IMG/VR virus record: IMGVR_UViG_3300042544_003680
Coordinates: 41,926 to 105,925 of that record
DNA length: 64,000 bases
Strand: one strand, 5' to 3'
Source: a virus
The translations under genes were made by a program, and so were the position numbers. Under the pieces are notes generated by a model that saw only the letters and a program-made list of their open reading frames with translations, was not told the DNA's origin and did no database searches. Below are positions 13,992 to 64,000 of the stretch, in pieces. The stretch's first letter is position 1. Each line of letters opens with the position of its first letter.

Positions 13992-14004
13992 ATTTTTAAT
14001 TAAA

Positions 14005-14358: not shown

Positions 14359-14369
14359 AAATTTTAATT

Positions 14370-15054: not shown

Positions 15055-15056
15055 TC

Positions 15057-15293: not shown

Positions 15294-15320
15294 ATTATGC
15301 AACTAATGGTCGTATATATC

Positions 15321-15512: not shown

Positions 15513-15513
15513 T

Positions 15514-15541
15514 TTGACATATCAATTAAATGTGTTAAACT
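15514..15541 (+). promoter_or_regulatory. Sigma70-type promoter of tRNA-Ile
   Basis: TTGACA 15514-15519, 16-bp spacer, TAAACT 15536-15541. tRNA-Ile starts 17 bp downstream. Confidence 0.75.
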
Positions 15542-15557
15542 AAAATAGTCTGAATAT

Positions 15558-50228: not shown

Positions 50229-50651
50229 TTAATTTTTAACGACAAATACTTCCATCCATTCTGGAGATTTGTGCTGCAATATATTCATATCTTTTCGATT
50301 GTCAACAAAAACATCAAAAACATATCCTTTTCCTTTTGATGCTTTTTTCTTTGTTACTGCACTTCCTCGGTCCTGTACTATAAATGTTCCATTTCCGACT
50401 TTACCTTTTAAGTTTGGAATAATAATTTTAGTTCCAAACTTAAAATCTGGATGTGCTGCAACAGTAATTCCTTTTTTTGCAACTTTGGTATTTTGGTCAC
50501 TAACCTTTTTACCAAATGGTGCTTGTGGATAATAATATGTTATGCGTGCTTTTATTTTTTGCAAAGCAGAGGGTTTCTGTGTTTGTTCTTTTTCTATTGC
50601 AGAACAAGAGCATAAACAAGAAATGATAAAAAATATAGATATTGTTTTCAT
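50229..50651 (-). CDS. Lipoprotein with 3D (MltA-like) domain, 140 aa
   Basis: Signal peptide and lipobox (ISCLCSC, Cys at about 16), followed by a double-psi barrel: ARITYYYPQAPFGKK, VAAHPDFKFGTKIIIPN and FIVQDRGSAVTKKKA...GYVFDVFVDN, with the Asp residues that give the 3D domain its name. Found in lytic transglycosylases and RlpA-like proteins. It could cut or bind peptidoglycan at the outer membrane, perhaps during lysis. ATGA overlap with the LRR gene upstream. Confidence 0.8.
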   Translation of the reverse strand: MKTISIFFIISCLCSCSAIEKEQTQKPSALQKIKARITYYYPQAPFGKKVSDQNTKVAKKGITVAAHPDFKFGTKIIIPNLKGKVGNGTFIVQDRGSAVTKKKASKGKGYVFDVFVDNRKDMNILQHKSPEWMEVFVVKN

Positions 50652-51232
50652 GTGTCGAAGTTTACATTAGAGCAATAGTCCATAGAAATCAAGTGATTAC
50701 CTTTGCCAAAAGTTGGGAAAAAATCATCTTTAAAAATTTTTGGTCCAAATAAAAAACTATTTAATTTGTTTCGGTAAATATGAAAATAACCATCTATAAT
50801 TTTTGGTGAACCTTTTAAGGTAACTAAATAGTTAAATTCACAATTGAAAAAACCATGTACTATTTTCGGTGCTCCAATTAGATTAACTAACTTATTATTG
50901 CTACATTCAAATCCTCCTCCAATACTTTGCGGCATTCCTTCTAAAGTAGTTAATTTATTGCCATTACAAAGCAAATGTCCTCCAATTCTTTTTGGACCTC
51001 CTTTTAAATTAATTAAGCTATTATAATTACAGATAAAACTTCCTCCAACACTTTTTGGACCATTTTCTAATGATGATATTCCAGTATAACTACAAAAGAA
51101 ACCTCCTTCTATAATTTTTGGAATATTTTTAAGTGTAATTAAATCAGTATAATTACAATCAAAATTTCCAAGAATTACTTCTGGAAGATTGGGAAGTTCC
51201 TCTAAATTTTCTAATGTTAGTTTAAAGTTCAT
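50648..51232 (-). CDS. LRR-like repeat protein, 194 aa (7 modules, longest copy)
   Basis: Seven tandem modules such as FICNYNSLINLKGGPKRIGG and FECSNNKLVNLIGAPKIVHG, then a diverged penultimate module (SFLFGPK) and cap NHLISMDY. The N-terminus (KLTLENLEELPNLPEVI) replaces the usual short DxSxKxLxxLPxxPxI start. Last member of the minus-strand cluster, overlapping both neighbours. Confidence 0.82.
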   Translation of the reverse strand: MNFKLTLENLEELPNLPEVILGNFDCNYTDLITLKNIPKIIEGGFFCSYTGISSLENGPKSVGGSFICNYNSLINLKGGPKRIGGHLLCNGNKLTTLEGMPQSIGGGFECSNNKLVNLIGAPKIVHGFFNCEFNYLVTLKGSPKIIDGYFHIYRNKLNSFLFGPKIFKDDFFPTFGKGNHLISMDYCSNVNFDT

Positions 51233-51542
51233 CTTTTTGAGCGGAGATATAATCCATTGTTAATAACGAATTACTGTTGCACATTACCCGAAGTGTTGTT
51301 TTAGGAGAATATATCAAATTAGTTAATTTATTAAAGGAACACCAAAAAAGTCTCCCTACAAATTTTGGTGCTCCTTTTAAATCCGATAAATTATTAGCAG
51401 CACAGTCGAAGTGTCCTCTGACAACTTCTGGGGAACATTTTAAGCTAGTCAACTGATTGATGGCAACTTCAAAATTGCCATCAAAAATTTTAGGAAAAAC
51501 TGGTATTTTCTTTAAACCTTGGTTATTGTAATAAACATTCAT
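51222..51542 (-). CDS. LRR-like repeat protein, 106 aa (3 modules)
   Basis: Begins MNVYYNNQGLKKIPVFP. Modules FEVAINQLTSLKCSPEVVRG, FDCAANNLSDLKGAPKFVG and FWCSFNKLTNLIYSPK, then cap NSLLTMDYIS. Overlaps the next gene by 11 bases. Confidence 0.82.
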   Translation of the reverse strand: MNVYYNNQGLKKIPVFPKIFDGNFEVAINQLTSLKCSPEVVRGHFDCAANNLSDLKGAPKFVGRLFWCSFNKLTNLIYSPKTTLRVMCNSNSLLTMDYISAQKDEL

Positions 51543-51919
51543 AATATGTTTTCCAGATTAGTTGGAATATAATCAACTGACAGCAAGTTATTATGATGAT
51601 ATGAGGTCCAAAGTGGTTCTTTAGGAAAATATAACAAACTGGTTAGTCTATTTCTCGAACAATAAAATGCTCCTCCGACATTTTTTGGACCTCCTTTTAA
51701 AGTAAACAAAATATTGCAACTACAATTATACCCTCCTCTTATAGTTTGTGGCGATCCCTTTAAATTAGTTAATTTATTGTGTTTAATATTAACGTGATCA
51801 TTTATATTTTTAGGGCAATCTTCTAAACTAGTCAAACCTCTAAGTATACAAATCAAACTATTGCCGTTATCATGAAAGATTTTAATTCCATTATTTTTTA
51901 AATATGTTATATTTATCAT
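51539..51919 (-). CDS. LRR-like repeat protein, 126 aa (4 modules)
   Basis: An atypical N-terminus (ITYLKNNGIKIFHDNGNS) precedes four modules; the second, VNIKHNKLTNLKGSPQTIRG, lacks the usual Cys. Cap NNLLSVDYIP. ATGA-type overlaps on both sides imply translational coupling along the cluster. Confidence 0.8.
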   Translation of the reverse strand: MINITYLKNNGIKIFHDNGNSLICILRGLTSLEDCPKNINDHVNIKHNKLTNLKGSPQTIRGGYNCSCNILFTLKGGPKNVGGAFYCSRNRLTSLLYFPKEPLWTSYHHNNLLSVDYIPTNLENIL

Positions 51920-52239
51920 ACCCGGAAATTTTTTACACTTGAAACGTAATCAAAAGAAATCAGATTATTATAATAACAAAATACATTTCTTGATAATTTT
52001 GGACTATATAATAAACTATTCAAGTTATTCCAACCGCAATTAAAATTCCCTTTTACAATTTTCGGACCTCCTTTTAAAGTAAATAAGTTATTTCTGAAAC
52101 AGTCAAAATAACCAAGTACAATTCTAGGTGATCCTTGTAAGCTAGTTATTTGATTATTACTGAAAACTGCCATTCCTTTTACAAAATCTGGTAATTCTGG
52201 CAGTTTTGTTAATTTTTTAAAAGAATAATCAATATTCAT
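51916..52239 (-). CDS. LRR-like repeat protein, 107 aa (3 modules)
   Basis: Standard start (MNIDYSFKKLTKLPELPDFV), modules FDCFRNNLFTLKGGPKIVKG and FNCGWNNLNSLLYSPK, cap NNLISFDYVS. Confidence 0.82.
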   Translation of the reverse strand: MNIDYSFKKLTKLPELPDFVKGMAVFSNNQITSLQGSPRIVLGYFDCFRNNLFTLKGGPKIVKGNFNCGWNNLNSLLYSPKLSRNVFCYYNNLISFDYVSSVKNFRV

Positions 52240-52496
52240 ACTAGATGTTTATTAAATGGAATATAATCCCTTGACAGTAAATGATTATAAGAATACCAAC
52301 TTCTTCCCATTACTATTTTTGGGGTTTCTAGTAAATAAACTAGTTTATTATAAGAGCAATCAAAACTAGAATTTATAATTTTTGGACATCCTTTTAGGCT
52401 AGTTAAAAGATTGTCGGCACACCAAAAATAACCATCTAAAATTTTTGGAAAAGATGGTAGTTCTGGTAAATCTTTACAAGAAAGGTCGATATTCAT
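52236..52496 (-). CDS. LRR-like repeat protein, 86 aa (2 modules)
   Basis: One of the shortest intact copies: MNIDLSCKDLPELPSFPKIL, modules FWCADNLLTSLKGCPKII and FDCSYNKLVYLLETPKIV, cap NHLLSRDYIP. Shows the minimal unit of start, modules and cap. Confidence 0.8.
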   Translation of the reverse strand: MNIDLSCKDLPELPSFPKILDGYFWCADNLLTSLKGCPKIINSSFDCSYNKLVYLLETPKIVMGRSWYSYNHLLSRDYIPFNKHLV

Positions 52497-52519
52497 AATG
52501 GTAACTAAATAAATACGGT

Positions 52520-53023
52520 TTATATATGAACACTATTCGGGATATAATCAAGAGATAATAAACAGTTAGCAATGTACGATAACTCAAAAGGATTTTTTGG
52601 TGTATAAATTAGACTTGTTATCTTATTACGATTACACATAAAACATCCATTTACTCTTTTTGGTGCGCCATATAAAGTAATTAAATCATTTTCTTCGCAC
52701 CAAAAATTACCAACACTCTTTGGTGATCCTTCTAAATTAGTTAAATCGTTATCACTACAATGAAATTCGTCACCCACATTTTCTGGACCTCCTTTTAAAC
52801 TAGTCAACCTGTTCACGCTACACCAGAAATGGGTTCCGACAAATTTTGGCCCTTTTTCTAAACTAGTTAATCGGTTTCTTCTGCAATAGAAACTTCCATT
52901 TACGATTTTCGGCGATCCTTTTAATGTAGTTAATTTATTATTATGACACCAAAGATCGCCATTTATAATTTCAGGAAGTTCTGGTAATTTTGGTAATCTT
53001 TTACCGGATAAATTTATTTCCAT
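52520..53023 (-). CDS. LRR-like repeat protein, 167 aa (6 modules)
   Basis: The clearest array: LWCHNNKLTTLKGSPKIVNG, FYCRRNRLTSLEKGPKFVG, FWCSVNRLTSLKGGPENVG, FHCSDNDLTNLEGSPKSV, FWCEENDLITLYGAPKRV, FMCNRNKITSLIYTPK, cap NCLLSLDYIP. The third and fourth residues of each module (before Asn) vary most. Confidence 0.85.
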   Translation of the reverse strand: MEINLSGKRLPKLPELPEIINGDLWCHNNKLTTLKGSPKIVNGSFYCRRNRLTSLEKGPKFVGTHFWCSVNRLTSLKGGPENVGDEFHCSDNDLTNLEGSPKSVGNFWCEENDLITLYGAPKRVNGCFMCNRNKITSLIYTPKNPFELSYIANCLLSLDYIPNSVHI

Positions 53024-53337
53024 AAATTTCTTGTGTTAGAATAATCCAAAGATAATAAGTGATTGTATTTAATAGATATAGAAGTTATAATTTTTGGACC
53101 ATATATTAAATTAGACAAACGATTAAATTCCCCATATAAGTGACCTCCAATAAATCTGGATATTCCATATAAACTAGTTAATCTATTATGATAACAGTGA
53201 AAATTTTCTTCTACCGTTTGGGGAGAATTTTCCAAATTAGTTGACGAATTATAACCACACAAAAAGAAACTTCCATGTATAATTTTTGGTGATCTTGGTA
53301 ATTTTTCCAATTCTTTAAAAGAACGATCAAATTTCAT
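53014..53337 (-). CDS. LRR-like repeat protein, 107 aa (3 modules)
   Basis: First gene of the minus cluster. Start MKFDRSFKELEKLPRSPKII; modules are more diverged (FFLCGYNSSTNLENSPQTV; LYGEFNRLSNLIYGPK); cap NHLLSLDYSN. Confidence 0.8.
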   Translation of the reverse strand: MKFDRSFKELEKLPRSPKIIHGSFFLCGYNSSTNLENSPQTVEENFHCYHNRLTSLYGISRFIGGHLYGEFNRLSNLIYGPKIITSISIKYNHLLSLDYSNTRNLWK

Positions 53338-53366
53338 AATGAAATGATTTTCTAGTTAAGATGTTT

Positions 53367-53633
53367 TTAAATTTCATCATCTTGATATTCTTCGAAGTCA
53401 TCCATATTGTCAACCACAAAATCGACCATAGCTTCGATTAATTCATTCCAATCTTCATCTTCATCATCTGGAGAAACAGTTTTCAACTCTTCAAAAATTT
53501 CTTCCCGACTTGCATTTTCTTCACTTAGTTCTGCAATCAATTTGCTAAGTTTTTTGGTTTGTCTGGAAGTTAATTCAATTCCAAAATCGTCAGCAATATT
53601 TTCCAAGTTTGATTTAATTTCTTCGTCTGTCAT
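53367..53633 (-). CDS. Hypothetical acidic protein, 88 aa
   Basis: Very acidic, helical (MTDEEIKSNLENIADDFGIE; ends DFEEYQDDEI). Not recognised. A terminator at 53663-53702 and an ACTAAATA-like box lie upstream, so it may begin a late transcript that includes the LRR cluster. Confidence 0.55.
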   Translation of the reverse strand: MTDEEIKSNLENIADDFGIELTSRQTKKLSKLIAELSEENASREEIFEELKTVSPDDEDEDWNELIEAMVDFVVDNMDDFEEYQDDEI

Positions 53634-53662
53634 AAGTTAAAAATTATTTAGTCTATAAATAG

Positions 53663-53702
53663 AAAAAAGGGGTTTCTGCGAAATTGCAGAAACCCCTTTT
53701 TT
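53663..53702. terminator. Bidirectional terminator
   Basis: GGGGTTTCTGC/GCAGAAACCCC (53669-53679 with 53686-53696), loop GAAATT, A-run and T-run on the two sides. Ends the 54150-53710 gene on the minus strand. Confidence 0.93.
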
Positions 53703-53709
53703 ATTAGGG

Positions 53710-54150
53710 TCACACAGTCACTTCGTCATGGACATCTTCAGTTAGAAACACCACAGAATCAGAAGATTCGTCCGATTCAGTGGATTCCTCTACTGCATGG
53801 ATTTCTCCTGCCTCAACTGCTTCTGGTGCGGTTTCTGGTGCTTCCGGGGAAAGCAGTGCAACCTTTGCTTTACGAGGCTTGTTGACCTTTGTAGTGGGAG
53901 CAAGACACTTCAACATATCAGCAACATTCTGATGAATGCCATACTTTTCAATTGCTTGTTCCTTAGTGAGATTTTCACTTTTGATAATGTTGCGACCACC
54001 CCGAGAAACATAACTATTGTCCAATTGTTCGGCAGAAATATTATACCGATTCATTAGATCGTTGAATTGCTTTGGATTAGTCGGAACACTCTCTCCAGTA
54101 ACTTTGCAAACGAGAGAATAACGATTATTTGGATTTGTAGGACGAGCCAT
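53710..54150 (-). CDS. Hypothetical protein, 146 aa
   Basis: N-terminal block MARPTNPNNRYSLVCKVTGE and LTKEQAIEKYGIHQNVADML look like a small DNA-binding-type helical domain; the C-terminal 50 residues are Ala/Glu/Ser-rich and acidic, probably disordered. An AATAAATA box lies right at the ATG. Late gene of unknown role. Confidence 0.58.
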   Translation of the reverse strand: MARPTNPNNRYSLVCKVTGESVPTNPKQFNDLMNRYNISAEQLDNSYVSRGGRNIIKSENLTKEQAIEKYGIHQNVADMLKCLAPTTKVNKPRKAKVALLSPEAPETAPEAVEAGEIHAVEESTESDESSDSVVFLTEDVHDEVTV

Positions 54151-54212
54151 ATATTTATTTGGTTTTTTGTTGTTGTTTATTTGGGTTGTTTTGCTTTTTC
54201 TTGGGTGTAAAA

Positions 54213-54521
54213 TTAGAAATTAATTGCAGTTTTATCAACTGGACCTTTGTAAGTAAAGCCCAAATCTTTAATAGCATCAAATACTTGTTTAGCAGAAAGA
54301 TTTGAAAAGCTATAAAAACATTCCGCTTCCCGACTATAATTATTTCGAAGAATAGGAGATTTTTCGAAAAATGATTCTGCTGCTGCTTCCACTTCGTCAT
54401 CTTCCATCATCTCGTCCAGATCATCATTCAAAACATCGCCCATACCTACCATAAAACATACATCTTCATCTGGATAACAATTGGAATAAAATCCGATAAG
54501 TTCTGGTTTAATATTATTCAT
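54213..54521 (-). CDS. Hypothetical acidic protein, 102 aa
   Basis: Acidic central stretch (LNDDLDEMMEDDEVEAAAE) followed by a small alpha/beta domain (LSAKQVFDAIKDLGFTYKGP). Not recognised. Confidence 0.55.
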   Translation of the reverse strand: MNNIKPELIGFYSNCYPDEDVCFMVGMGDVLNDDLDEMMEDDEVEAAAESFFEKSPILRNNYSREAECFYSFSNLSAKQVFDAIKDLGFTYKGPVDKTAINF

Positions 54522-54548
54522 AAGCTGATTTATTTGGTGTGGTGATTA

Positions 54549-54977
54549 TTACTCTGGGAGGAGTGCTTTGTCAAAGAAATTTTTCACAAACTCGCAGAAA
54601 AAATTCTCTTCATGTTCTTCCAATTTTTCGGAAAAAATGAATTCCATAAAAGAATCCGAATGAAAATAATTAATTTTATTTTCGTAATAATTGAAATTTA
54701 CTGGAACCGTTTTTTGGGCGAATCCGCTAACGTCTAAATCCAGCAAATGCTTGCAATTGTTGCTAGTAATGCCCACTTGAATTGTTAGGCACCATTCTTT
54801 TCTAACAGTTTCATCAAACTCTAAAGAACGGGGAATTAGTGCCAAATAATAATTATCAATTGGCAAATCTTCGATTTTATTCTTAATAGTGTTTTGATCA
54901 TTCTCAGAAACGCCCACAGACAAAATCCGGAACAATTCTTCTTTCGTCAAATTGCGAGTTTTATAAATGCTTTTCAT
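54549..54977 (-). CDS. Hypothetical protein, 142 aa
   Basis: Soluble; segments LTKEELFRILSVGVSEND and NKIEDLPIDNYYLALIP. Not recognised. First gene of the minus-strand operon that diverges from the + strand LRR cluster; a weak TTGACA-N16-CATGAT promoter lies upstream. Confidence 0.55.
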   Translation of the reverse strand: MKSIYKTRNLTKEELFRILSVGVSENDQNTIKNKIEDLPIDNYYLALIPRSLEFDETVRKEWCLTIQVGITSNNCKHLLDLDVSGFAQKTVPVNFNYYENKINYFHSDSFMEFIFSEKLEEHEENFFCEFVKNFFDKALLPE

Positions 54978-55059
54978 AGAATATTTGGTTGATGGGCATC
55001 ATGGATTATTTTTCCCCTTTGTCAATGAGAAAACAAAAATTTTTTCTGGTAAAAAATAG

Positions 55060-55087
55060 TTGACACTTCAAAAAAGGGGCATACAGT
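55060..55087 (+). promoter_or_regulatory. Sigma70-type promoter of the LRR cluster at 55.1 kb
   Basis: TTGACA 55060-55065, 16-bp spacer, TACAGT 55082-55087. A 15-codon reading frame (MNWFENKNEKNEKCI, 55090-55137) begins 2 bp later and overlaps the first LRR start, possibly as a leader peptide. Confidence 0.65.
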
Positions 55088-55127
55088 AAATGAACTGGTT
55101 TGAAAATAAAAATGAAAAAAATGAAAA

Positions 55128-55442
55128 ATGTATATGAGTGGGTATAAAAAATTAATAAAATTGGAAAATATTCCAGAAATTATAATTGGAGATTTTGATT
55201 GCGGTTTTAATAAATTACGTAATTTAGAAGGAGGACCGAAATTTGTATTTGGAAATTTCGATTGCAGTGCTAACGATTTAACCACATTGCGAGGGGGACC
55301 GAAAAATATTATGCATACGGGAATTTATGATTGTTTTGATAACAATTTGACTAGTCTGTTATATGCACCCAAAATAATCAACAACTTTTATTATTTCAAA
55401 AATCTTTTATTAACTTTGGATTATATCTCTTATAACGAATAA
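55128..55442 (+). CDS. LRR-like repeat protein, 104 aa (3 modules)
   Basis: Start MYMSGYKKLIKLENIPEII; modules FDCGFNKLRNLEGGPKFV and FDCSANDLTTLRGGPKNI; then a module with DNNLTSLLYAPK and cap NLLLTLDYIS. The start overlaps a short upstream frame. Confidence 0.8.
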   Translation: MYMSGYKKLIKLENIPEIIIGDFDCGFNKLRNLEGGPKFVFGNFDCSANDLTTLRGGPKNIMHTGIYDCFDNNLTSLLYAPKIINNFYYFKNLLLTLDYISYNE

Positions 55443-55555
55443 TGCGCCTCTCTAATACATATTCAAGAACTTGCCTGTTACCTGCACCTAAAATAATTAT
55501 AGGTTTTTATTTTACTAACAGTTTACTAACAAAGGATTATATTCCTTGTATATAA
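55442..55555 (+). pseudogene. LRR-like remnant, 37 aa (cap plus partial module)
   Basis: Overlaps the end of the previous copy. Reads MRLSNTYSRTCLLPAPKIII, then GFYFTNSLLTKDYIP, i.e. only the penultimate module and the cap of the family remain. Either a decayed copy or a spare cap cassette. Confidence 0.6.
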
Positions 55556-55556
55556 A

Positions 55557-55859
55557 ATGAATCTTTCTGGTAAAAATTTAAACAGTTTGACAAAATTATC
55601 AATTCCGAGAATTATAGAGGAATATTTTTTGTGTGGTTATAATAAATTATCAACTTTAGAGGGCGGACCAGAAATCGTAACTGGTTTTGTGTGTTATTGC
55701 AACGAATTAATTAGTTTAAAAGGATCGCCTAAAAAAGTAGAAAACATGTTCTTTTGTGCTAACAATTATTTAACATCTTTAATATATTTTCCTAAAAAAC
55801 GTAGATATATGAATTTTAGTTATTATAAAAACCATTTACTAACTTTGGATTATTTTTGA
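55557..55859 (+). CDS. LRR-like repeat protein, 100 aa (3 modules)
   Basis: MNLSGKNLNSLTKLSIPRII start; modules with CGYNKLSTLEGGPEIV, CYCNELISLKGSPKKV and CANNYLTSLIYFPK; cap NHLLTLDYF truncated right after the motif. Confidence 0.8.
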   Translation: MNLSGKNLNSLTKLSIPRIIEEYFLCGYNKLSTLEGGPEIVTGFVCYCNELISLKGSPKKVENMFFCANNYLTSLIYFPKKRRYMNFSYYKNHLLTLDYF

Positions 55860-55862
55860 ATT

Positions 55863-56177
55863 ATGCATATTTCTGATAAAAATTTAACAAAACTTCCCTT
55901 TTTGCCAGAAATTATGGAGGAAAGTCTTATTTGTTATCATAATAATTTGATTACATTAGATGGATCGCCAAAACATATAAAAGGATATTTTTCGTGCAGT
56001 TATAATAATTTGACTAGTTTAAAGGGGATTTCAAAAAAAATTGATAAACGGATTTATTGTAATAGAAATAATTTGACTAGTTTATTATATACTCCAAAAT
56101 CGCAGGTTATACCATTTTGTACGATGAACCATTTACTAACTTTAGATTATTTTCCAAGACATGACGAAACATTTTAA
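55863..56177 (+). CDS. LRR-like repeat protein, 104 aa (3 modules)
   Basis: MHISDKNLTKLPFLPEIM start; CYHNNLITLDGSPKHI, CSYNNLTSLKGISKKI, CNRNNLTSLLYTPK; cap NHLLTLDYFP. Overlaps the next copy by 17 bases. Confidence 0.8.
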   Translation: MHISDKNLTKLPFLPEIMEESLICYHNNLITLDGSPKHIKGYFSCSYNNLTSLKGISKKIDKRIYCNRNNLTSLLYTPKSQVIPFCTMNHLLTLDYFPRHDETF

Positions 56178-56466
56178 TTGCAGCTACAAACAGCTAACTG
56201 TTTTGGATAAATTTCCAGAAATTATATACGGAAGTTTTATATGTAATAACAATAAATTAGTGGATTTACAAAATGGACCAAAAATTGTAAATCAACATTA
56301 TTTATGTTTTGATAATAAATTAATTAGTTTAAGAGGCGGACCAGAAATTGTAGGTTGGGCATTTGAGATATTTGGTAACTATTTAACTAGTTTAATATAT
56401 AGTCCGAAAATAAAAAGATTGCGTGATTTTCAAAAAAATCATTTGTTAACTTTGGATTACTATTGA
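56161..56466 (+). CDS. LRR-like repeat protein, 101 aa (3 modules)
   Basis: MTKHFNCSYKQLTVLDKFPE start (first module fused with the N-terminus); CNNNKLVDLQNGPKIV, CFDNKLISLRGGPEIV; cap NHLLTLDYY. Followed by a promoter for the next unit. Confidence 0.8.
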   Translation: MTKHFNCSYKQLTVLDKFPEIIYGSFICNNNKLVDLQNGPKIVNQHYLCFDNKLISLRGGPEIVGWAFEIFGNYLTSLIYSPKIKRLRDFQKNHLLTLDYY

Positions 56467-56490
56467 GGTCCAGAAATTTCCAGAAAATTG

Positions 56491-56518
56491 TTGACACCCT
56501 CTTTACCTAGTGTATTAT
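56491..56518 (+). promoter_or_regulatory. Sigma70-type promoter, near-leaderless geometry
   Basis: TTGACA 56491-56496, 16-bp spacer, TATTAT 56513-56518 preceded by TG. ATG of the 52-aa gene at 56528. Confidence 0.8.
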
Positions 56519-56527
56519 AAGCCACCT

Positions 56528-56686
56528 ATGAAAAACGAAGATTCTAAACCAGTTGAACTTGAAATCGCTCCTGAATACATCAAAAAAATGCAAACAGAAG
56601 GTTTGTTTGATGGTAGTCAGGGAATTCCTCCTCAATTTCCATTGGATGTTCATTATATGCAAGCATATCACTCTGTTAAACGTTAA
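56528..56686 (+). CDS. Small hypothetical protein, 52 aa
   Basis: Driven by its own promoter (56491-56518) with the ATG 9 bp past the -10 element. Sequence opens MKNEDSKPVELEIAPEYIKK; no motif. Probably the first gene of the unit that includes the split RNA ligase. Confidence 0.6.
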   Translation: MKNEDSKPVELEIAPEYIKKMQTEGLFDGSQGIPPQFPLDVHYMQAYHSVKR

Positions 56687-56697
56687 CTATTAATTAA

Positions 56698-57207
56698 ATG
56701 AAAATCTATTCATCAAACGTCAGTTTTAAGCGAAAAATCAAACTTCTTTTTAAAGAAGTTCAAAGGAAAAATGATAGTGATGCAAGAAATCTTTTTGAAC
56801 ATTTTTTCCTTCAAAAAAGAATTTTACCTAAAAACATTTATAGCAAATGGTCAATGTTTTTTGATTTGCGAAAGCTATTGAATATGTCTCCTGAAGATTT
56901 TCGAAGATTTGTTCGGCTGGCTAATCGTCTTTCAAAAGCTGCAAAAAAACAAGAAAAGTTTTTGTTTTTTGATGATTTGGTTAAATGCGTCCATAAAAAA
57001 ACAGATGCAAGAAATATCAAATTTTATGAAAAACGAAAATTGTCAATTTCATTTGATCCCGTGGAAGTAGAAATTCTCGTGTCTTCGGAAAAAGAACTAG
57101 AGGAATTTAAACAAATGATGGGAAAAAAATTCAAATTGAATTTGCATAGTTATATGCTTCTTGCTCCAAACCACGGAAATTGCATTGTTACTCCCTCCGT
57201 TAAATAA
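56698..57207 (+). CDS. Hypothetical protein, 169 aa
   Basis: Basic (many Lys/Arg), helical N-terminal part (NVSFKRKIKLLFKEVQRKND), then an alpha/beta C-terminus (VEVEILVSSEKELEEFKQ). Could bind nucleic acid. Its stop is 1 base before the RNA ligase start. Confidence 0.6.
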   Translation: MKIYSSNVSFKRKIKLLFKEVQRKNDSDARNLFEHFFLQKRILPKNIYSKWSMFFDLRKLLNMSPEDFRRFVRLANRLSKAAKKQEKFLFFDDLVKCVHKKTDARNIKFYEKRKLSISFDPVEVEILVSSEKELEEFKQMMGKKFKLNLHSYMLLAPNHGNCIVTPSVK

Positions 57208-57208
57208 T

Positions 57209-57994
57209 ATGTACTCAAAATCTAAAGAATATAACGAAAATTATCTCGCAACAATTGTAAAATTGCAGAACTTGCGACCCCATTTTAATGCAGATCGCTT
57301 GCAATGCCTAGCAATCTACGGTAATAACGTAATTACTGGATTGTCTGCAAAAGAAAATGATTTGTATGTTTATTTTCCTTTGGAATGTGCAATTTCCGCA
57401 GATTTCCTGAAATACACTAATTCTTTTCGAGACAACTCTCTTAACCAAGATTCCCTTCAAAAAGGAATGTTTGAAGCGAATTGTCGAGTAAAAGCAGTTC
57501 GATTGCGTGGAGAAAAAAGCGAAGGATACGTTGTTCCTGTTTCTGAAATTGAAAAGTTCTGTAAAGATTTTCTTTCAAAGGAAATTAAAATTTCTGAAAA
57601 AGATGTTGGAACTGATTTTGACGAAATTTGTAACCATGTTTTGTGTAAAAAGTACGTTCCTCGCAACATGGTGGAAAAGGTTCCATCTGGTAACAAACCA
57701 AAGGGAAATACTAAAAAGTATAAATCCAAGTTGATTGAAAACCAATTCCATTTTCATCCTGATACCAGTCATTTGAAAAAAGAAGTGGAAAAGATTGACC
57801 CCGATGATTATATTGCAATTACTGAAAAAATCCATGGATGTAATTTTGTGGTCAGTCATGTATTAGTTAATAAAAATCTATCTTGGAAAGATAAAATTGC
57901 AAAATTCTTTGGCTGTAAAGTTCAAGAAACTGAATATGGAATGTTGTATTCCAGTCGTCGTGTCTTGAAAAATACAAATTTAGTAGATTCTTAA
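57209..57994 (+). CDS. RNA ligase, N-terminal part (DRB0094/Rnl5-like), split gene
   Basis: 261 aa. N-terminal OB-type domain (YLATIVKLQNLRPHFNADRLQ; VPVSEIEKF), then the start of the ligase domain with motif I AITEKIHGCNFVVS (catalytic Lys in K-x-H-G). It ends SSRRVLKNTNLVDS, inside what should be a continuous ligase domain (motif III region). The remaining motifs are encoded at 58783-59382, after a GIY-YIG endonuclease gene. The two parts could associate like split NrdA of phage Aeh1; inference. Confidence 0.85.
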   Translation: MYSKSKEYNENYLATIVKLQNLRPHFNADRLQCLAIYGNNVITGLSAKENDLYVYFPLECAISADFLKYTNSFRDNSLNQDSLQKGMFEANCRVKAVRLRGEKSEGYVVPVSEIEKFCKDFLSKEIKISEKDVGTDFDEICNHVLCKKYVPRNMVEKVPSGNKPKGNTKKYKSKLIENQFHFHPDTSHLKKEVEKIDPDDYIAITEKIHGCNFVVSHVLVNKNLSWKDKIAKFFGCKVQETEYGMLYSSRRVLKNTNLVDS

Positions 57995-58016
57995 TTACTT
58001 TACAGTAAATATTTGA

Positions 58017-58790
58017 ATGAGAAAAACAAAAACTCGTTCAAATTCAGGAATATATAAAATAACCAATACAATAAACAATAAATGTTATATAGGCAGTGCA
58101 GTCGATGTACTAGCAAGATTTTATACACATAAAAATAGACTTGAGACAAATAGACATCATTCAATAGTCTTACAAAGAGCATGGAATAAATATGGCAAAA
58201 ACTCTTTTACATTTGAAATATTAGAAGATTGTTCTAAAGAAGAATTAATAATACGAGAACAGTTCTATATAAATTCATTGACTCCAGAATACAATATATG
58301 CAAAACCGCAGGAAATTGTTTAGGAGTTAAACATACTAAAGAGTCTAATTTAAAAAAATCGGTGAATTCTACCTTAAAAGGGAAATTTGGAAAAGATAAT
58401 CCATCTTCGATTGAAATATATCAATATGATTTGGATGGAACATTCATTACTAAATGGAACGGTTTAAAGGAAATCGAAAGATGTTTAAATTATAATTCTT
58501 CAAATATTGGAAAAGCGAGTTTAAAGTCTGATAGAACATGTTATGGATTTTTTTGGAGTAGAGTTTTTTTAGGTGAAAAAATAAAGCCTATAAAGTCTCG
58601 AAATAGAGAAAAATGTAAAAAAGCTATTGAAATGTTGGATATGAATGGTAACGTAATTCGTTCGTTTGAATCACAGAAAGATGCCACTAAATTTCTAGGA
58701 CTTTGTTCGAATGTGTGTATAAACTATGCATTGAAAAATAAAGTTAAACATGCTTATGGCTATAAATGGAGATATAAAAAATATGATTAA
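58017..58790 (+). CDS. GIY-YIG homing endonuclease inside the RNA ligase gene, 257 aa
   Basis: N-terminal nuclease: SGIYKITNTINNKCYIGSAV (GIY and YIG), KNRLETNRHHS, WNKYGKNSFTFEILEDC and the catalytic Glu in IIREQFYI. The C-terminal half has NUMOD-type DNA-binding repeats (IYQYDLDGTFITKWNGLKEI; EMLDMNGNVIRSFESQKDA). Starts 22 bases after the ligase N-part stop and its last 8 bases overlap the C-part start. Confidence 0.92.
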   Translation: MRKTKTRSNSGIYKITNTINNKCYIGSAVDVLARFYTHKNRLETNRHHSIVLQRAWNKYGKNSFTFEILEDCSKEELIIREQFYINSLTPEYNICKTAGNCLGVKHTKESNLKKSVNSTLKGKFGKDNPSSIEIYQYDLDGTFITKWNGLKEIERCLNYNSSNIGKASLKSDRTCYGFFWSRVFLGEKIKPIKSRNREKCKKAIEMLDMNGNVIRSFESQKDATKFLGLCSNVCINYALKNKVKHAYGYKWRYKKYD

Positions 58791-59382
58791 AAAAATAAAA
58801 CAATTGTTTAAGAAAAAAGAAAATCAGCAACAACATAATCATTTTTATGATGCAGATGTTTGGAAAATTGTTGCAGATAAGATTTTCCCTTCGTTGAGTA
58901 AAGGCATTTCCGTTACGGGTGAAATCGTGGGATATACACCAAATGGTAGTCCTATCCAACGTGGATATGATTATTCCTGTGCTCCAAATACTTGTGATTT
59001 TTATGTTTTCAACGTAACTTATACAAGTCCATGCGGAAATGTTTACACTTTTTCTCATCCAGAATTGGAAGCATTTTGTCGTAAATTCGGTTTCAAAACA
59101 CCCAAAACACATTATTATGGAAAGGCTGAAAATCTTTTTCCTGATTTGAGTGTTCATAATCATTGGCATCAAGATTTTCTTGATAAAATGATTAATACTT
59201 ATCTGGAAAAGAAATGCACTATTTGTAAAAATGATGTATGGGCAGAAGGAGTTGTTTTGCGAAAAATGGTTCCTTTTGAATGGCAAGCATTTAAACTGAA
59301 AAGTTTCAACTTCTTGTTGCATGAAACTAAGCAACTGGACTCTGGCGAAGTTGATATGGAAACTGCGGAATCCAGTGAATAA
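58783..59382 (+). CDS. RNA ligase, C-terminal part, split gene
   Basis: 199 aa. From about residue 25 it continues the ligase domain: DVWKIVADKIFPSLSKGISVTGEIVGYTP (motif III, with GE), CDFYVFNVTY (motif IIIa), WAEGVVLRKM (motif IV) and FEWQAFKLKSFNFLL (motif V, Lys-x-Lys). An ATG with a GGAGA sequence about 10 bases upstream starts it as a separate protein overlapping the endonuclease stop. The first 20 Lys/Gln-rich residues are probably new. A terminator follows. Confidence 0.85.
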   Translation: MIKKIKQLFKKKENQQQHNHFYDADVWKIVADKIFPSLSKGISVTGEIVGYTPNGSPIQRGYDYSCAPNTCDFYVFNVTYTSPCGNVYTFSHPELEAFCRKFGFKTPKTHYYGKAENLFPDLSVHNHWHQDFLDKMINTYLEKKCTICKNDVWAEGVVLRKMVPFEWQAFKLKSFNFLLHETKQLDSGEVDMETAESSE

Positions 59383-59398
59383 TAAAAATTAAAACTTA

Positions 59399-59440
59399 AA
59401 AATGGTTAGATGGCTGAATAAACCATCTAACCATTTTTAT
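59399..59440 (+). terminator. Intrinsic terminator after the split RNA ligase
   Basis: AATGGTTAGATGG/CCATCTAACCATT (59401-59413 with 59423-59435), followed by a T-run. Separates the ligase unit from the next LRR cluster. Confidence 0.9.
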
Positions 59441-59450
59441 TACCTAATAT

Positions 59451-59846
59451 ATGAAAAAAGTTAAAGATGGAAGTTATAATGTATCGTTACTCGGTTTAAA
59501 AGAATTACACAATGAATATTTTAAAATTGAGGGGAGTTTTGATTGTAGTTCTAATTCTCTAAAGAGTCTAAAAGGAGGTCCGAAAATTGTTGTTAATAGT
59601 TATTGGTGCCATCTAAATTATCTAACAGATTTAATTGGAGGTCCAGAAGAAGTTGGATTAGATTTTGAATGTGCTAGAAATAATTTGATTACTTTAAAGG
59701 GAGGACCAAAATTTGTAGGATGGCGTTTAGCTATTAATGATAATCGGTTAACTAATTTATTATTTTTTCCTAAATTGCTCGGAACTAGAAAATATGATCA
59801 CAACAACCATTTTCTTTCATTGGATTATATTCCTCTTGTTAAATAG
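59451..59846 (+). CDS. LRR-like repeat protein, 131 aa (4 modules)
   Basis: Modules FDCSSNSLKSLKGGPKIV, YWCHLNYLTDLIGGPEEV, FECARNNLITLKGGPKFV, then NRLTNLLFFPK and cap NHFLSLDYIP. First copy after a terminator. Confidence 0.8.
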   Translation: MKKVKDGSYNVSLLGLKELHNEYFKIEGSFDCSSNSLKSLKGGPKIVVNSYWCHLNYLTDLIGGPEEVGLDFECARNNLITLKGGPKFVGWRLAINDNRLTNLLFFPKLLGTRKYDHNNHFLSLDYIPLVK

Positions 59847-59857
59847 ATGTATAAAAT

Positions 59858-60118
59858 ATGAAAACCGATTTGACAATTTACAATTATCCTGAAAATGTAG
59901 ATAGAATATTCTATTGTGAGAGAAAACTGTTGACTAGTTTAAAAGGATGCCCAAAATATACACATAATATATATGCGGTGGAAAACCATTTAACAAGTCC
60001 TTTGTTTTCTCCTAAAGTTACGAAAATAAATATAATTTTTAAAAGACAGGCTAACATGATTATATTCTGGAATAATTTTTTGACTCTGGATTATTCAAAT
60101 AATTTTATAAGCTATTAA
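59858..60118 (+). CDS. Degenerate LRR-like protein, 86 aa
   Basis: Only two recognisable modules (CERKLLTSLKGCPKYT; ENHLTSPLFSPKVT), a disrupted spacer (IIFKRQANMI) and cap NNFLTLDYSN. Still an open frame; possibly decaying. Confidence 0.65.
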   Translation: MKTDLTIYNYPENVDRIFYCERKLLTSLKGCPKYTHNIYAVENHLTSPLFSPKVTKINIIFKRQANMIIFWNNFLTLDYSNNFISY

Positions 60119-60125
60119 TTTAAAC

Positions 60126-60464
60126 ATGAGTGTTGATGTTTTTAACAAAGGATTATCTGAATTACAGAATTTTCCAAAAATAGTGGAAGGTTCTTTTGAT
60201 TGCAGCGGTAATTATTTAAGTAATCTAAAGGGAAGTCCAGAATTTATCCACGGTCGGTTTGATTGTTCTTATAATGAATTAGTTACTTTAAAAGGTTCTT
60301 TGAAATTCGTGAAAAGAAATTTTAATTGTCATAATAATAAATTGACCACTTTTTTATATTGTCCAAAAATAAAAGGGTATATTTCAACAGAATTTAATGT
60401 TTTAATTTCTTTGGATTATGTTCCTGAGAATTCGATAATTTTGTACTACAATTTCAACTTTTGA
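60126..60464 (+). CDS. LRR-like repeat protein, 112 aa (3 modules)
   Basis: MSVDVFNKGLSELQNFPKIV start; FDCSGNYLSNLKGSPEFI, FDCSYNELVTLKGSLKFV, FNCHNNKLTTFLYCPK; cap region FNVLISLDYVP, which is the same as in the next copy, evidence of recent duplication. Confidence 0.8.
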   Translation: MSVDVFNKGLSELQNFPKIVEGSFDCSGNYLSNLKGSPEFIHGRFDCSYNELVTLKGSLKFVKRNFNCHNNKLTTFLYCPKIKGYISTEFNVLISLDYVPENSIILYYNFNF

Positions 60465-60469
60465 TATTT

Positions 60470-60739
60470 ATGAATATAATAACCGTTTCGGTAAAGAATG
60501 TTAGTAGAACATGCTATTATAGTTATTTTAATTTAACTAGTTTAAAAGGAGGTTTAAAATTTGTACATACACAGTTTTACTATTGTCAGGGAAATAAACT
60601 AACAACTTTATTATATTCTCCAAAAACATCCCACAAGTTTTCAGCAGAATTTAATGTTTTAATTTCTTTGGATTACGTTCCTAATCACGGTTCCATATTT
60701 TACGAGAAATTTAGCAGAAGAAATGCAGAAAATCGTTGA
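60470..60739 (+). CDS. LRR-like repeat protein, 89 aa, diverged N-terminus
   Basis: Start placed at ATG 60470. The first module is degraded (TCYYSYFNLTSLKGGLKFV); the second (CQGNKLTTLLYSPK) and cap FNVLISLDYVP copy the preceding gene. Its 3' end overlaps the promoter of the DUF6745 gene. Confidence 0.68.
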   Translation: MNIITVSVKNVSRTCYYSYFNLTSLKGGLKFVHTQFYYCQGNKLTTLLYSPKTSHKFSAEFNVLISLDYVPNHGSIFYEKFSRRNAENR

Positions 60740-60763
60740 CAACCCTTTTTCCCCGTGTATAAT
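60736..60763 (+). promoter_or_regulatory. Consensus sigma70 promoter of the DUF6745-like gene
   Basis: TTGACA 60736-60741, 16-bp spacer, TATAAT 60758-60763 preceded by TG. The best match to consensus in the window. Confidence 0.88.
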
Positions 60764-60785
60764 AGACCCATCACCAAACCAATCT

Positions 60786-61763
60786 ATGAAACTAAGCGAC
60801 ATTAATACCGAAAAAGTTCCAAGCATTTTCGCTGAAGCATTTAAGAATGCTTTGTCCACAAATCGTCTTGATTATGATCAGACTGTGGATACAATTCATA
60901 AATTCCAAGAAATCTTTTTGGAAGTTCCGAAAACTCCGGTAGTTATTGTAGATAATCCACTTGAAGGCTGGGTTGCTTCCCATTTTATTGAAGCAGGTTA
61001 TCCAATTAACAGTATTAAGGAAAACATTAAAAATTATTTCGAAGCTGTTCCTTTTGTTGAAGAAATTGACAATTTCGATAAAACTGAAAAGGTTCAAATT
61101 GGCAAGTTTTTCTATCCATTGTTCGGAGGTAGCCTTGACTCTTTGAGCCATACATTCTTTGATTTTTACATGGATCTTTGTAATGACGATTTGGGTGAAT
61201 ATCGGGAAAAGTATCTTATCTGGAAGGAAATGTCACAATTGGGTGCAGTTTACTTTATGGATAAAGTAGCAATTGCTTCCCAAAAAGTCACTACATTGAA
61301 ATTTAATGCGAATAAACAATTCCATAATGATAGCGGTCCTGCTATTTCTTATGCTGGATATGGAGATTTGAATTACTATTGTATTAACGGTGTTGTTGTT
61401 CCTGATTGGTTGGCAAACACTCATTCCAGTCAAATCGACATTAATCGCTATACTGAAATTACGAATGCCGATGTTCGTATGGAATTTATCCGAAAGGTCG
61501 GAATTGAGCGAATGCTTTCATTCGGATCTAAACTGGATACCTACGAAAACTATGACAATGAATGGTGGACGAATAGCGAATACGAACTACATGATATGAA
61601 TTGCTTGTTCCCCGGAGTTGATTATGCTCCCCACTTGAAGATGCTGAATCAAACCACAAGAGTTTGGCATGTTGAAGCAGTTGATCCTAGATGTAAAACT
61701 TTGGAAGATGCCATTAATTTCCGTTTCAATGATCGTAAGATTAATATCATTGGAATTGCATAA
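60786..61763 (+). CDS. DUF6745-like protein, 325 aa
   Basis: Start chosen at ATG 60786, downstream of the promoter (60736-60763). The central NANKQFHNDSGPAISYAGYGDLNYYCINGVVVPDWL and following ITNADVRMEFIRKVGIERML resemble the DUF6745 domain (LHNxxGPAIxxxDGxxxYxxxGxxVPxW...NAEVRRxMxERxG). The function of the family is unknown; in bacteria it occurs with repeat proteins of leucine-rich type. The last part (WHVEAVDPRCKTLEDAINFR) matches its usual ending. Confidence 0.78.
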   Translation: MKLSDINTEKVPSIFAEAFKNALSTNRLDYDQTVDTIHKFQEIFLEVPKTPVVIVDNPLEGWVASHFIEAGYPINSIKENIKNYFEAVPFVEEIDNFDKTEKVQIGKFFYPLFGGSLDSLSHTFFDFYMDLCNDDLGEYREKYLIWKEMSQLGAVYFMDKVAIASQKVTTLKFNANKQFHNDSGPAISYAGYGDLNYYCINGVVVPDWLANTHSSQIDINRYTEITNADVRMEFIRKVGIERMLSFGSKLDTYENYDNEWWTNSEYELHDMNCLFPGVDYAPHLKMLNQTTRVWHVEAVDPRCKTLEDAINFRFNDRKINIIGIA

Positions 61764-61786
61764 AAATCCACTCAAACTAAAAATCC

Positions 61787-61794
61787 CATAAATA
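61787..61794 (+). promoter_or_regulatory. Late-type promoter box CATAAATA
   Basis: Ends 7 bp before the ATG at 61802. Confidence 0.55.
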
Positions 61795-61801
61795 CAAATA
61801 T

Positions 61802-62158
61802 ATGAATACAGACCCAACAGATAATCAAACAAAAGGAATCGTTCACGGTGAATGCTTGATTTTCCAATCAAAAATTCCCGAGGATGCAATCCCAGAACAA
61901 CATCATGATAAACAAATTATTATTGCAAACAGTGAAGTCACTGGCAATCACCATGTTATCATGAATAACCCCGGTGTAAAGTTTTATCATAATTCCGCGA
62001 AAACTCGTCGGTTTATGAAGAATGAAACCGAAACCAGTGTGCAATGCGTAATTGCTGATCGTCATACCGCAATTCCAATTCCTCCGGGAGAATGGGAAAT
62101 TGATATGCAACAAGAGTTTGACTATTTTGCAATGGCTAAACGCAACGTTGCAGACTAA
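61802..62158 (+). CDS. Hypothetical protein, 118 aa
   Basis: His-rich beta protein (EQHHDKQIIIANSEVTGNHHV; CVIADRHTAIPIPPGEWEI). Often such proteins accompany DUF6745 genes. It has a late box 7 bp upstream of the ATG. Function unknown. Confidence 0.62.
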   Translation: MNTDPTDNQTKGIVHGECLIFQSKIPEDAIPEQHHDKQIIIANSEVTGNHHVIMNNPGVKFYHNSAKTRRFMKNETETSVQCVIADRHTAIPIPPGEWEIDMQQEFDYFAMAKRNVAD

Positions 62159-62195
62159 TAATTAATTCAATTAACTAATTTAGAAAAATTATATT

Positions 62196-62462
62196 ATGGA
62201 AACGCCAGAAAATTCCGAAACTGTTGTTGAACCAGTATACAACAGGGTTTATGATCAAGTTTATGACCAGCCACAAAATAAACTTGGTGAATTCTGGGAT
62301 GCGTTGATTGTACGAATCAAAGCGAGAATGACAGAAGAAACATTTTATGAATTTACGAAAGATAATTCATGGGTGGCTAATCATCCTGCGGAAGTCTTTA
62401 AGACAAAGCACAACATTATGAAAGTTGTAGGGGATCGGCAAAAGAATGTGAATCTGGCATAA
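62196..62462 (+). CDS. Hypothetical protein, 88 aa
   Basis: A short VYNRVYDQVYDQ repeat near the N-terminus, then a helical domain (LGEFWDALIVRIKARMTEE). Ends shortly before a terminator. Not recognised. Confidence 0.58.
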   Translation: METPENSETVVEPVYNRVYDQVYDQPQNKLGEFWDALIVRIKARMTEETFYEFTKDNSWVANHPAEVFKTKHNIMKVVGDRQKNVNLA

Positions 62463-62475
62463 AACAAAAAACAAG

Positions 62476-62509
62476 AAAAAGGGGTGGAAGAATTCTTCCA
62501 CCCCTTTTT
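62476..62509 (+). terminator. Intrinsic terminator, perfect palindrome
   Basis: A 24-bp palindrome, GGGGTGGAAGAA and its complement (62481-62504), with A-run and T-run flanks. Confidence 0.93.
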
Positions 62510-62522
62510 AATAATAAAAATT

Positions 62523-62927
62523 ATGATTAAAATATTTAATAAAATAATTTCCTTTGGAATATTCCTAATTCCTCTTGTAACCATTCATCTTGCAACAATT
62601 TATAATAATGTTGTGGCAAAATATATGGCATATGGCTACAACTTTCTTTTCCTTTGCACTATTCCGGTTTCAATTGTTTATTATTTTCTTTGTAAACATA
62701 TTAATCAATCGGCAACAAAGAAACCTCCTGCTTATTTTTTGATTAGTAAAATTATAGTAGTTTTATTGACTATACTCTATATTCTGTTGCTAGGATTTCA
62801 TCAATGGTACTGGTCTGCATTGTGCTGGCTGTTCGGAGGAGTTTACTCATTTATGTATATTTCTCTTGGAGAAAAGTATGCTATGCAAACGGATGTGCAT
62901 AAGCCACAAGAGAACGAAGATGAGTAA
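62523..62927 (+). CDS. Membrane protein with four TM segments, 134 aa
   Basis: Start placed at ATG 62523, after the terminator; the upstream GTG lies inside the terminator. Hydrophobic segments at about residues 5-23, 36-55, 75-94 and 97-118, with a charged C-terminal tail (KPQENEDE). Inner-membrane location likely. Coupled by ATGA overlap to an LRR gene. Confidence 0.65.
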   Translation: MIKIFNKIISFGIFLIPLVTIHLATIYNNVVAKYMAYGYNFLFLCTIPVSIVYYFLCKHINQSATKKPPAYFLISKIIVVLLTILYILLLGFHQWYWSALCWLFGGVYSFMYISLGEKYAMQTDVHKPQENEDE

Positions 62928-63306
62928 TTTGACCCTTGATAATAGAAGTCTAACAAAATTGGAAAATATTCCAGAAATTATATATGGAAATTTTCACTGT
63001 CGGGATAACCATTTAACTAATTTAAATGGTTCACCGAAAATTGTAAAGGGGATGTTTAATTGCAGGAGTAATTTTTTAACCAATTTATTAGGAGGACCAG
63101 AAAGTACGGGGATAGATTTCGTTTGCAGTATGAATAATCTAATTAGCTTAAAAGGAGCACCTAAATTCGTCGGAGACACATTTTATTGTGACGAAAATAA
63201 GTTAACTAGTTTGTTATATTCTCCTAAAAATGCGCATTATTTTTGGTCGGCACAAAATCATCTTTTATCAAGAGATTATTTTCCAAATTATTGTAGAAAT
63301 ATGTAA
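62920..63306 (+). CDS. LRR-like repeat protein, 128 aa (4 modules)
   Basis: MSNLTLDNRSLTKLENIPEI start; CRDNHLTNLNGSPKIV, CRSNFLTNLLGGPEST, CSMNNLISLKGAPKFV, CDENKLTSLLYSPK; cap NHLLSRDYFP. Start overlaps the stop of the membrane protein gene. Confidence 0.82.
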   Translation: MSNLTLDNRSLTKLENIPEIIYGNFHCRDNHLTNLNGSPKIVKGMFNCRSNFLTNLLGGPESTGIDFVCSMNNLISLKGAPKFVGDTFYCDENKLTSLLYSPKNAHYFWSAQNHLLSRDYFPNYCRNM

Positions 63307-63310
63307 AAAT

Positions 63311-63634
63311 ATGAAATGTATTTGGATTTTTAATGAAAAGTATAAAATTTTTCCAGAATCACCAGAAATTGTAGATGGATATGTGAATTGTAGTTGGAAT
63401 TATTTGACTAGTTTAAAGGGATGCCCAAAAAGAATTGGTGAATTTTTTGTTTGTAAACATAATAAAATAACTACTTTAAAAGAAGGTCCAAGATTTATAG
63501 GAGGCGGGTTTTTTATTAGAGGTAATAAATTAACTGATTTTTTATACTCGCCTAAAACTATGCGTACCGTGGTTTTTACTGAAAATCATTTATTAACAAC
63601 TGATTATGTTCCAAATTGTAAAATTTATGAATGA
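63311..63634 (+). CDS. LRR-like repeat protein, 107 aa (3 modules)
   Basis: Start ATG 63311 (MKCIWIFNEKYKIFPESPEI), an N-terminus without the usual DxSxKxL. Modules CSWNYLTSLKGCPKRI, CKHNKITTLKEGPRFI, RGNKLTDFLYSPK; cap NHLLTTDYVP. Confidence 0.8.
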   Translation: MKCIWIFNEKYKIFPESPEIVDGYVNCSWNYLTSLKGCPKRIGEFFVCKHNKITTLKEGPRFIGGGFFIRGNKLTDFLYSPKTMRTVVFTENHLLTTDYVPNCKIYE

Positions 63635-64000
63635 TGTTTATATTAGTAATAAAAATCTAAAGAAGTTAGAGAATATTCCAGAACATGTAGATGGAATTTT
63701 TGATTGCAGCGAGAATCATTTAACGTCTTTAGAGGGAGGTCCGAAAAGCGTTTGGGGTTCTTTTTATTGCATTCATAATAAATTGACCGATTTAAAAGGA
63801 AGTCCACGAACAATAGGAAGAAGTTTTAATTGTAGTTGTAATAAATTAACTACTTTACACGGTGCTCCCAGAGTTGTTGGATGTTTTTTTCATTGTGTAG
63901 AAAATGAATTGACTAGCATGATATACTCTCCTAAGAATTCGGTAGCGTTATACTGGACCAGAGAAAATAATTTTTTGACAATGGATTACATAACAAGTTT
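63627..64000 (+). CDS. LRR-like repeat protein, incomplete at window end (4 modules seen)
   Basis: MNDVYISNKNLKKLENIPEH start; CSENHLTSLEGGPKSV, CIHNKLTDLKGSPRTI, CSCNKLTTLHGAPRVV, CVENELTSMIYSPK; cap NNFLTMDYI is reached just before the sequence ends, so only a few C-terminal residues are missing. The cluster probably continues beyond 64000. Confidence 0.82.
   Translation, partial: MNDVYISNKNLKKLENIPEHVDGIFDCSENHLTSLEGGPKSVWGSFYCIHNKLTDLKGSPRTIGRSFNCSCNKLTTLHGAPRVVGCFFHCVENELTSMIYSPKNSVALYWTRENNFLTMDYITS

Follow-up and report, generated by a model that had tools for sequence, protein, structure and literature searches.

Among described leucine-rich repeat (LRR) proteins, those closest to the family considered here are Internalin J (InlJ), YopM and the IpaH/SspH proteins, which are built of repeats of ~20–21 residues. 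A comparable overall plan is seen in the variable lymphocyte receptors (VLRs) of lampreys and hagfish, in which fixed ends enclose a variable number of LRR modules, variability is concentrated on the concave side, and the diversity is generated by recombination during somatic assembly. We describe a family of small LRR genes in a 64,000-nucleotide stretch of phage DNA (hereinafter the window), which comprises bases 41926–105925 of the 105,925-base record IMGVR_UViG_3300042544_003680, itself a fragment that stops within the last of the LRR gene arrays. The window family follows the VLR plan but exists as germline arrays in a virus, with no deaminase-driven assembly known, and there is no evidence for a common origin with the VLRs beyond the LRR fold. 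LRR proteins as such have long been known, and phage LRR genes have been annotated as hypothetical; the new part is the proposed VLR-like LRR binding repertoire in bacterial viruses. Specifically, we posit, with a probability of about 0.5, that these genes constitute a repertoire of small intracellular protein binders that would be used on several host proteins during infection.

To judge from structure prediction and profile matches, the copies are almost certainly divergent, short-type LRR solenoids with a cysteine ladder, as the sequence-only reading, an initial inspection of this DNA made without database searches, had anticipated. A sequence profile search of solved structures recovered InlJ (1.4e-14) and YopM (1.3e-12), followed by SspH and IpaH, with the matches to LRR structures spanning 1.4e-14 to 1e-5, and the NCBIfam InlJ model NF033187 was matched by 14 of 19 copies. 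The AlphaFold2 model of one copy (52520–53023), computed with 19 family members, attained a pLDDT of 90 and a pTM of 0.82 and displays a short strand in every turn. In Foldseek searches with this model, the top solved-structure matches were the LRR domains of IpaH, SspH and YopM (TMq mostly 0.41–0.74), while the top viral matches were mostly LRR proteins from giant viruses and phages. The 21-residue units carry an LRR-type signature (VxGxFxCxxNxL), and a cysteine occupies module position 19, the cysteine ladder position, in 49 of 59 modules. The Pfam LRR cut-offs were not reached, with a single member scoring 20.8 bits against LRR_4 (cut-off 27); this shortfall concerns detection and not structure, the models missing the divergent short unit.

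Beyond repeat length and the profile and fold matches, the window copies share the cysteine at the ladder position with InlJ and the N-x-LTxLxxxP pattern with YopM. However, unlike InlJ, they have no signal peptide, LPXTG motif or wall anchor visible on inspection; unlike IpaH/SspH, they lack a C-terminal E3 ligase domain, with hardly any residues past the C-cap; and unlike all of these they are small, stand-alone proteins encoded in gene arrays, with a pair of caps that, among the contigs searched, recurs solely in that of a close strain (see below). These features bear on whether the copies might instead act on the virion or the cell surface, determining adhesion or host range in the manner of internalin LRRs. 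The adhesin-type LRR of InlJ is indeed their top sequence match, and surface ligands are frequently bound by the concave faces of LRRs. Nevertheless, we consider such a role quite improbable: inspection reveals no fusion to a tail protein any more than a signal peptide or anchor, the genes lie amid metabolism, tRNA and RNA-ligase genes outside any tail module, and a ladder of free cysteines would fit the reducing cytoplasm.

The repeat unit of the window family, derived from 59 distinct modules, comprises 21 residues with the consensus N-x-L-T-S-L-K-G-x-P-K-x-V-x-G-x-F-x-C-x-x. Complete copies proceed from a short N-cap (M-x-x-x-x-S-x-K-x-L-x-K-L-x-x-x-P-x-I-x-x-G) through the internal modules to a penultimate module ending in LLYSPK or similar, ~9 further residues and the C-cap NxLLxLDY. 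The design of fixed ends around a variable middle is therefore as originally perceived, but the supposedly fixed NHLLSLDY cap is a consensus only, varying among copies as N[HSNVLCY][LF][LI][STG]x-DY. Chance repeats are ruled out, as a DNA pattern covering the penultimate module and cap has 12 matches in the window and none in 100 shuffles. N-cap similarity is uncoupled from C-cap similarity (Mantel r −0.12), a point in favor of the repertoire reading.

When the window, translated in six frames, was searched with HMMER using a profile built from the copies (Table 1), it matched 22 places, namely 21 open reading frames (ORFs) and one remnant, in agreement with the number and coordinates first read from the sequence. 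They form five arrays, with three copies at 14.3–15.3 kb, seven on the minus strand at 50.65–53.35 kb, five at 55.1–56.5 kb (four ORFs and the fragment 55436–55552; E=0.003), four at 59.4–60.7 kb and three at 62.8–64.0 kb; the remainder of the 105,925-base record yielded no further copies to the profile search. The encoded proteins are 82–215 aa long and consist of LRRs only. The end-to-start overlap of copies that had been noticed at the outset amounts to 4 bp in four cases (51539/51542, 51916/51919, 52236/52239 and, into the next gene, 50648/50651) and to 10–17 bp between other neighbors. The 4-bp overlaps of several LRR neighbors suggest translational coupling. At its end, the minus-strand array leads directly into a gene for a lipoprotein-like protein (a weak 3D-domain match), which is followed by an AAA ATPase gene.

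Among the 59 modules, positions 2, 16, 18, 20 and 21 are the most variable (entropy 3.3–3.8 bits), with position 14 next, while N1, L3, L6, P10, F17 and C19 are near invariant. When placed via LRR geometry rather than model coordinates, the variable positions would be those pointing outward from the xFxCxxNx strand and from the loop after it, on the concave side of the solenoid. The concave strand side is the usual ligand face of LRRs. The same module positions vary in five phage families whose ends are altogether different. This concentration of variability at the predicted binding face favors the idea of a binding repertoire raised by the sequence-only reading, and the window family probably constitutes one. 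In four other phage families, L062, L091, L036 and L105, the ratio of replacement to silent variation (pN/pS) at the variable sites is 3.12, 1.63, 1.91 and 1.48, respectively, as against random-codon null maxima of 1.46, 1.12, 1.19 and 1.18, indicating an excess of replacements in all four.

How such arrays change can be seen in a close strain represented by the IMG/VR contig IMGVR_UViG_3300042569_003232 (135,915 bases), which shows 99.3–99.7% identity to the window across large aligned blocks holding arrays A to D. The LRR genes of the two strains differ by a few substitutions and one clean module event: the product of gene A6 has 106 aa in the window, whereas that of the strain, with 127 aa, is longer by exactly one module (63 bp). 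The breakpoint slides over 8 bases within a 25-base near-repeat, ATTTAAAAGGAGCACC[A/G]AAATTTGT, common to two neighboring modules. Since nothing in the window resembles the additional module closely enough to have been its donor (best match 47/63 bases), a copied insert is disfavored, and a deletion in the window strain through unequal recombination is the likelier and simplest reading. Array E is missing altogether from the strain contig, which has ~0.85 kb in place of window positions 11720–15556. Conversely, the last array does not terminate at 64000 as first described: the strain contig carries three additional LRR genes beyond that point, one with ~9 modules. A comparison of L035 with L068, from an unrelated phage, shows an LRR gene with single-module differences at two separate places, against a background of 1 mismatch in 1165 aligned bases; searches for close relatives with the L022 and L105 proteins provided no further informative strain pairs. 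Thus, of the diversification by recombination envisaged earlier, module gain and loss are real, but rapid shuffling in the window phage is not borne out, most copies being static over the divergence seen. As a separate observation, substitutions between the strains cluster at window positions 56641–56921 and 47014–48336 in otherwise near-identical DNA, and these clusters are possible recombination tracts.

Several observations weigh against a functional repertoire. The two strains have almost every copy in identical form, indicating that change is not fast in the window phage. DNA tracts shared between window copies are no longer than in a codon-shuffled null; the recent gene conversion that might have been expected within these arrays is hence rejected. 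Some copies are broken, with 15015–15293 having lost its cap through a frameshift, 59858–60118 and 60461–60739 being degenerate at one end and 55436–55552 persisting as a remnant. At the variable sites of the window family pN/pS is 1.25, equal to the random-codon null of 1.22; the sites are saturated, or perhaps under relaxed constraint, and the ratio is uninformative as to positive selection. In the other families, a strong bias for T-ending codons weakens the argument from replacement rates.

Much of this would be expected under neutral amplification, whereby duplication-prone modules spread and their copies drift and partly decay (as in 15015–15293, 55436–55552 and 60461–60739) in near-static arrays without any repertoire function, the concave face being merely unconstrained. 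We nonetheless consider this explanation unlikely. Most LRR ORFs are intact, and their framework is constrained (pN/pS 0.61 in the window family and 0.20–0.66 in the others); families whose caps are unrelated show variation at the same positions, and four of them exceed the random-codon null; and phage genomes are compact, making a ~120 kb LRR-dominated stretch of a 597-kb contig (see below) hard to explain if it conferred no benefit.

Another conceivable source of the variable codons is targeted mutagenesis by a diversity-generating retroelement, which would be in keeping with their variation at bases 1 and 2 with retention of the third base in several families. This is very improbable, as framework Phe and Cys codons show the same fixed third-position T and a reverse transcriptase was found in 0/12 records searched, including the 735-kb LR756501 genome, with the genome of the window phage being incomplete. 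As for programmed assembly of the VLR type, a single module difference is seen between the strains, and neither programmed machinery nor a reverse transcriptase was seen.

We next consider the distribution of the design, for which IMG/VR was searched by pattern scans for caps and modules. The cap pair of the window family occurs in no IMG/VR contig besides that of the close strain. Four matches to the cap pattern in genome contigs are not LRR genes. By contrast, the module is widespread, with at least 118 stretches under a strict pattern, many of which form tandem arrays of genes whose ends are common to a lineage and whose module number varies. Hence, confinement to the window phage is upheld for the cap pair within IMG/VR but rejected for the module, and the initial picture of a genome-specific expansion was too narrow for a design widespread in large phages. 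The most extreme case is IMGVR_UViG_3300020045_008999 (596,785 bases; loci L165–L172), which capsid and terminase matches identify as a T4-type huge phage and which holds 98 LRR ORFs from 55.7 to 198 kb. With few exceptions these have one and the same N-domain (MKNLISKEEKDxIDxIC...) and C-domain (ILKYQRHFEIWNDDLTLNEENF...DEIKDGLE), enclosing modules that vary in number up to 10. The LRR genes of PHROG 21719, PHROG 7816, LR756501 and the Vibrio phage TDDLMA, a cultivated phage with three LRR matches, likewise have the same 21-residue module (41–45% identity) but different N- and C-terminal parts, and they are listed as hypothetical or of unknown function. Such independent large families in other phages count in favor of the repertoire reading. 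None of three LRR copies scanned matched a PADLOC defence model, leaving no known defence or anti-defence model assigned to them, and in the open-access literature searched, arrays of this kind, with LRR genes of fixed ends, were not found described for any phage.

The T4 internal proteins IPI–IPIII and Alt offer a further comparison, being small phage proteins that perhaps act on host defence, as proposed here, albeit with a different fold and sequence. In T4 a capsid-targeting sequence (CTS) loads internal proteins into the head, from which they are injected, and one of them blocks a restriction enzyme (PMC9026906). In the LRR arrays of other phages (L021 onward), CTS-like starts such as MKHLQSFSLFEA, MKSYKQFITES and MKYLKLFENF are found in 118/241 LRR ORFs as compared to 91/574 other ORFs, although these counts comprise related, non-independent paralogues, such that a p-value overstates the difference. 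The likeness of these starts to the T4 peptide is our presumption from the known T4 sequence. Several of the phages concerned also carry genes for a gp23-type capsid protein and an S77 prohead protease. The LRR proteins might accordingly be packed into capsids and injected with the DNA, comparably to IPI, which inhibits a restriction enzyme. A capsid-targeting peptide of the T4 type is N-terminal and ends at a Glu site for the prohead protease. For the window family this route is improbable, slightly more so than a surface role: its copies begin directly with the LRR cap, only the background proportion (5/25) fits even a loose CTS pattern, and capsid genes were not found on the contig of the window phage. 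More broadly, VLR-like repertoires, comprising as many as ~100 LRR proteins whose fixed ends are specific to the lineage, may have arisen repeatedly in large phages. Many of those in T4-type huge phages would then be CTS-bearing, injected polyvalent blockers of host immune proteins, with module recombination as the source of their diversity and positive selection acting on the concave face; in this full form the proposal is speculative and rather doubtful.

For the window phage we return to an intracellular repertoire, which could operate as follows. Each product would consist of stacked LRR turns of the short type, 21 residues long and joined by a cysteine ladder, between family-specific N- and C-caps, and would be expressed from operon-like, partly overlapping gene arrays. 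Turnover of the repertoire would have four sources: duplication of genes; acquisition or deletion of complete modules when module DNA of near-identical sequence recombines unequally; acquisition or deletion of entire arrays; and point mutation of strand residues predicted to face the concave surface. In the infected cell the products would then most likely bind proteins of the host or of competing elements, acting on multiple targets to take over the host or to counter its defences. That the repertoire serves host takeover or counter-defence, under selection by host defence, is a tentative suggestion, held with less confidence than the binding repertoire itself. The roles put forward in the sequence-only reading, namely inhibitors of host defences, host-range factors or decoys, are likewise conjectural. 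If true, this would provide a bacterial-virus counterpart of the immune repertoires of jawless vertebrates and account for the 'hypothetical' genes dominating the ~120 kb stretch of one huge-phage contig. Each copy would be a natural small binder, so that pull-downs could expose the host proteins which phages need to hit, perhaps including unknown defence systems, while strain pairs offer a direct route to the rate of module gain and loss.

Table 1. LRR genes and related features of the window, in window coordinates.
Position	Strand	Feature	Basis
11720..15556		Segment holding array E along with two genes for tRNA-Ser and further ORFs; ~0.85 kb instead in strain contig	
14370..14774	+	LRR gene E1, 134 aa	Profile search
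14698..15054	+	LRR gene E2	Profile search
15015..15293	+	LRR gene E3, cap lost through frameshift	Profile search
50648..51232	-	LRR gene A7, 194 aa, ~8 modules; overlaps next gene (lipoprotein) by 4 bp	hmmsearch 2.1e-65, ORF list
51222..51542	-	LRR gene A6, 106 aa; strain contig allele 127 aa, one additional 63-bp module	Strain comparison
51357..51358		Site of one-module (63-bp) strain difference; junction AAATTTGT (8 nt exact) inside 25-nt near-repeat with 1 mismatch	
51539..51919	-	LRR gene A5, 126 aa	Profile search
51916..52239	-	LRR gene A4, 107 aa	Profile search
52236..52496	-	LRR gene A3, 86 aa	Profile search
52520..53023	-	LRR gene A2, 167 aa, 7 modules; AlphaFold2 model	Profile search and model
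53014..53337	-	LRR gene A1, 107 aa; first LRR gene in minus-strand array	Profile search
55128..55442	+	LRR gene B1, 104 aa	Profile search
55436..55552	+	LRR fragment (remnant)	hmmsearch E=0.0031
55557..55859	+	LRR gene B2, 100 aa	Profile search
55863..56177	+	LRR gene B3, 104 aa	Profile search
56161..56466	+	LRR gene B4, 101 aa	Profile search
59451..59846	+	LRR gene C1, 131 aa	Profile search
59858..60118	+	LRR gene C2, degenerate, 86 aa	Profile search
60126..60464	+	LRR gene C3, 112 aa	Profile search
60461..60739	+	LRR gene C4, N-terminal half degenerate	Profile search
62920..63306	+	LRR gene D1, 128 aa from ATG; ORF open from 62866	Profile search
63230..63634	+	LRR gene D2, 134 aa	Profile search
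63606..63998	+	LRR gene D3, truncated by contig end; end and three more genes visible in strain contig	Profile search, strain contig

Other features of these genomes merit brief mention. The strain contig (L011) encodes a nicotinamide phosphoribosyltransferase (7215–8825) and, close by, a ribose-phosphate pyrophosphokinase (9511–10398), a pair that suggests an NAD+ rebuilding pathway directed against NAD-depleting defences and is an example of genes suiting an arms race. A phage transfer-messenger RNA lies at window positions 8135–8578 on the plus strand (Rfam RF00023, 90 bits), which was missed by ARAGORN. The RNA ligase gene at 57161–59382 is interrupted by a GIY-YIG homing endonuclease ORF (58017–58790), its two parts covering profile positions 6–227 and 224–398, and Rfam detects no group I intron at the split. 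Finally, the region 44642–45682 holds an Endonuclease VII/HNH-type ORF (44711–45682) absent from the strain contig, beside which lies strongly diverged DNA (44263–44641), as after homing with co-conversion.

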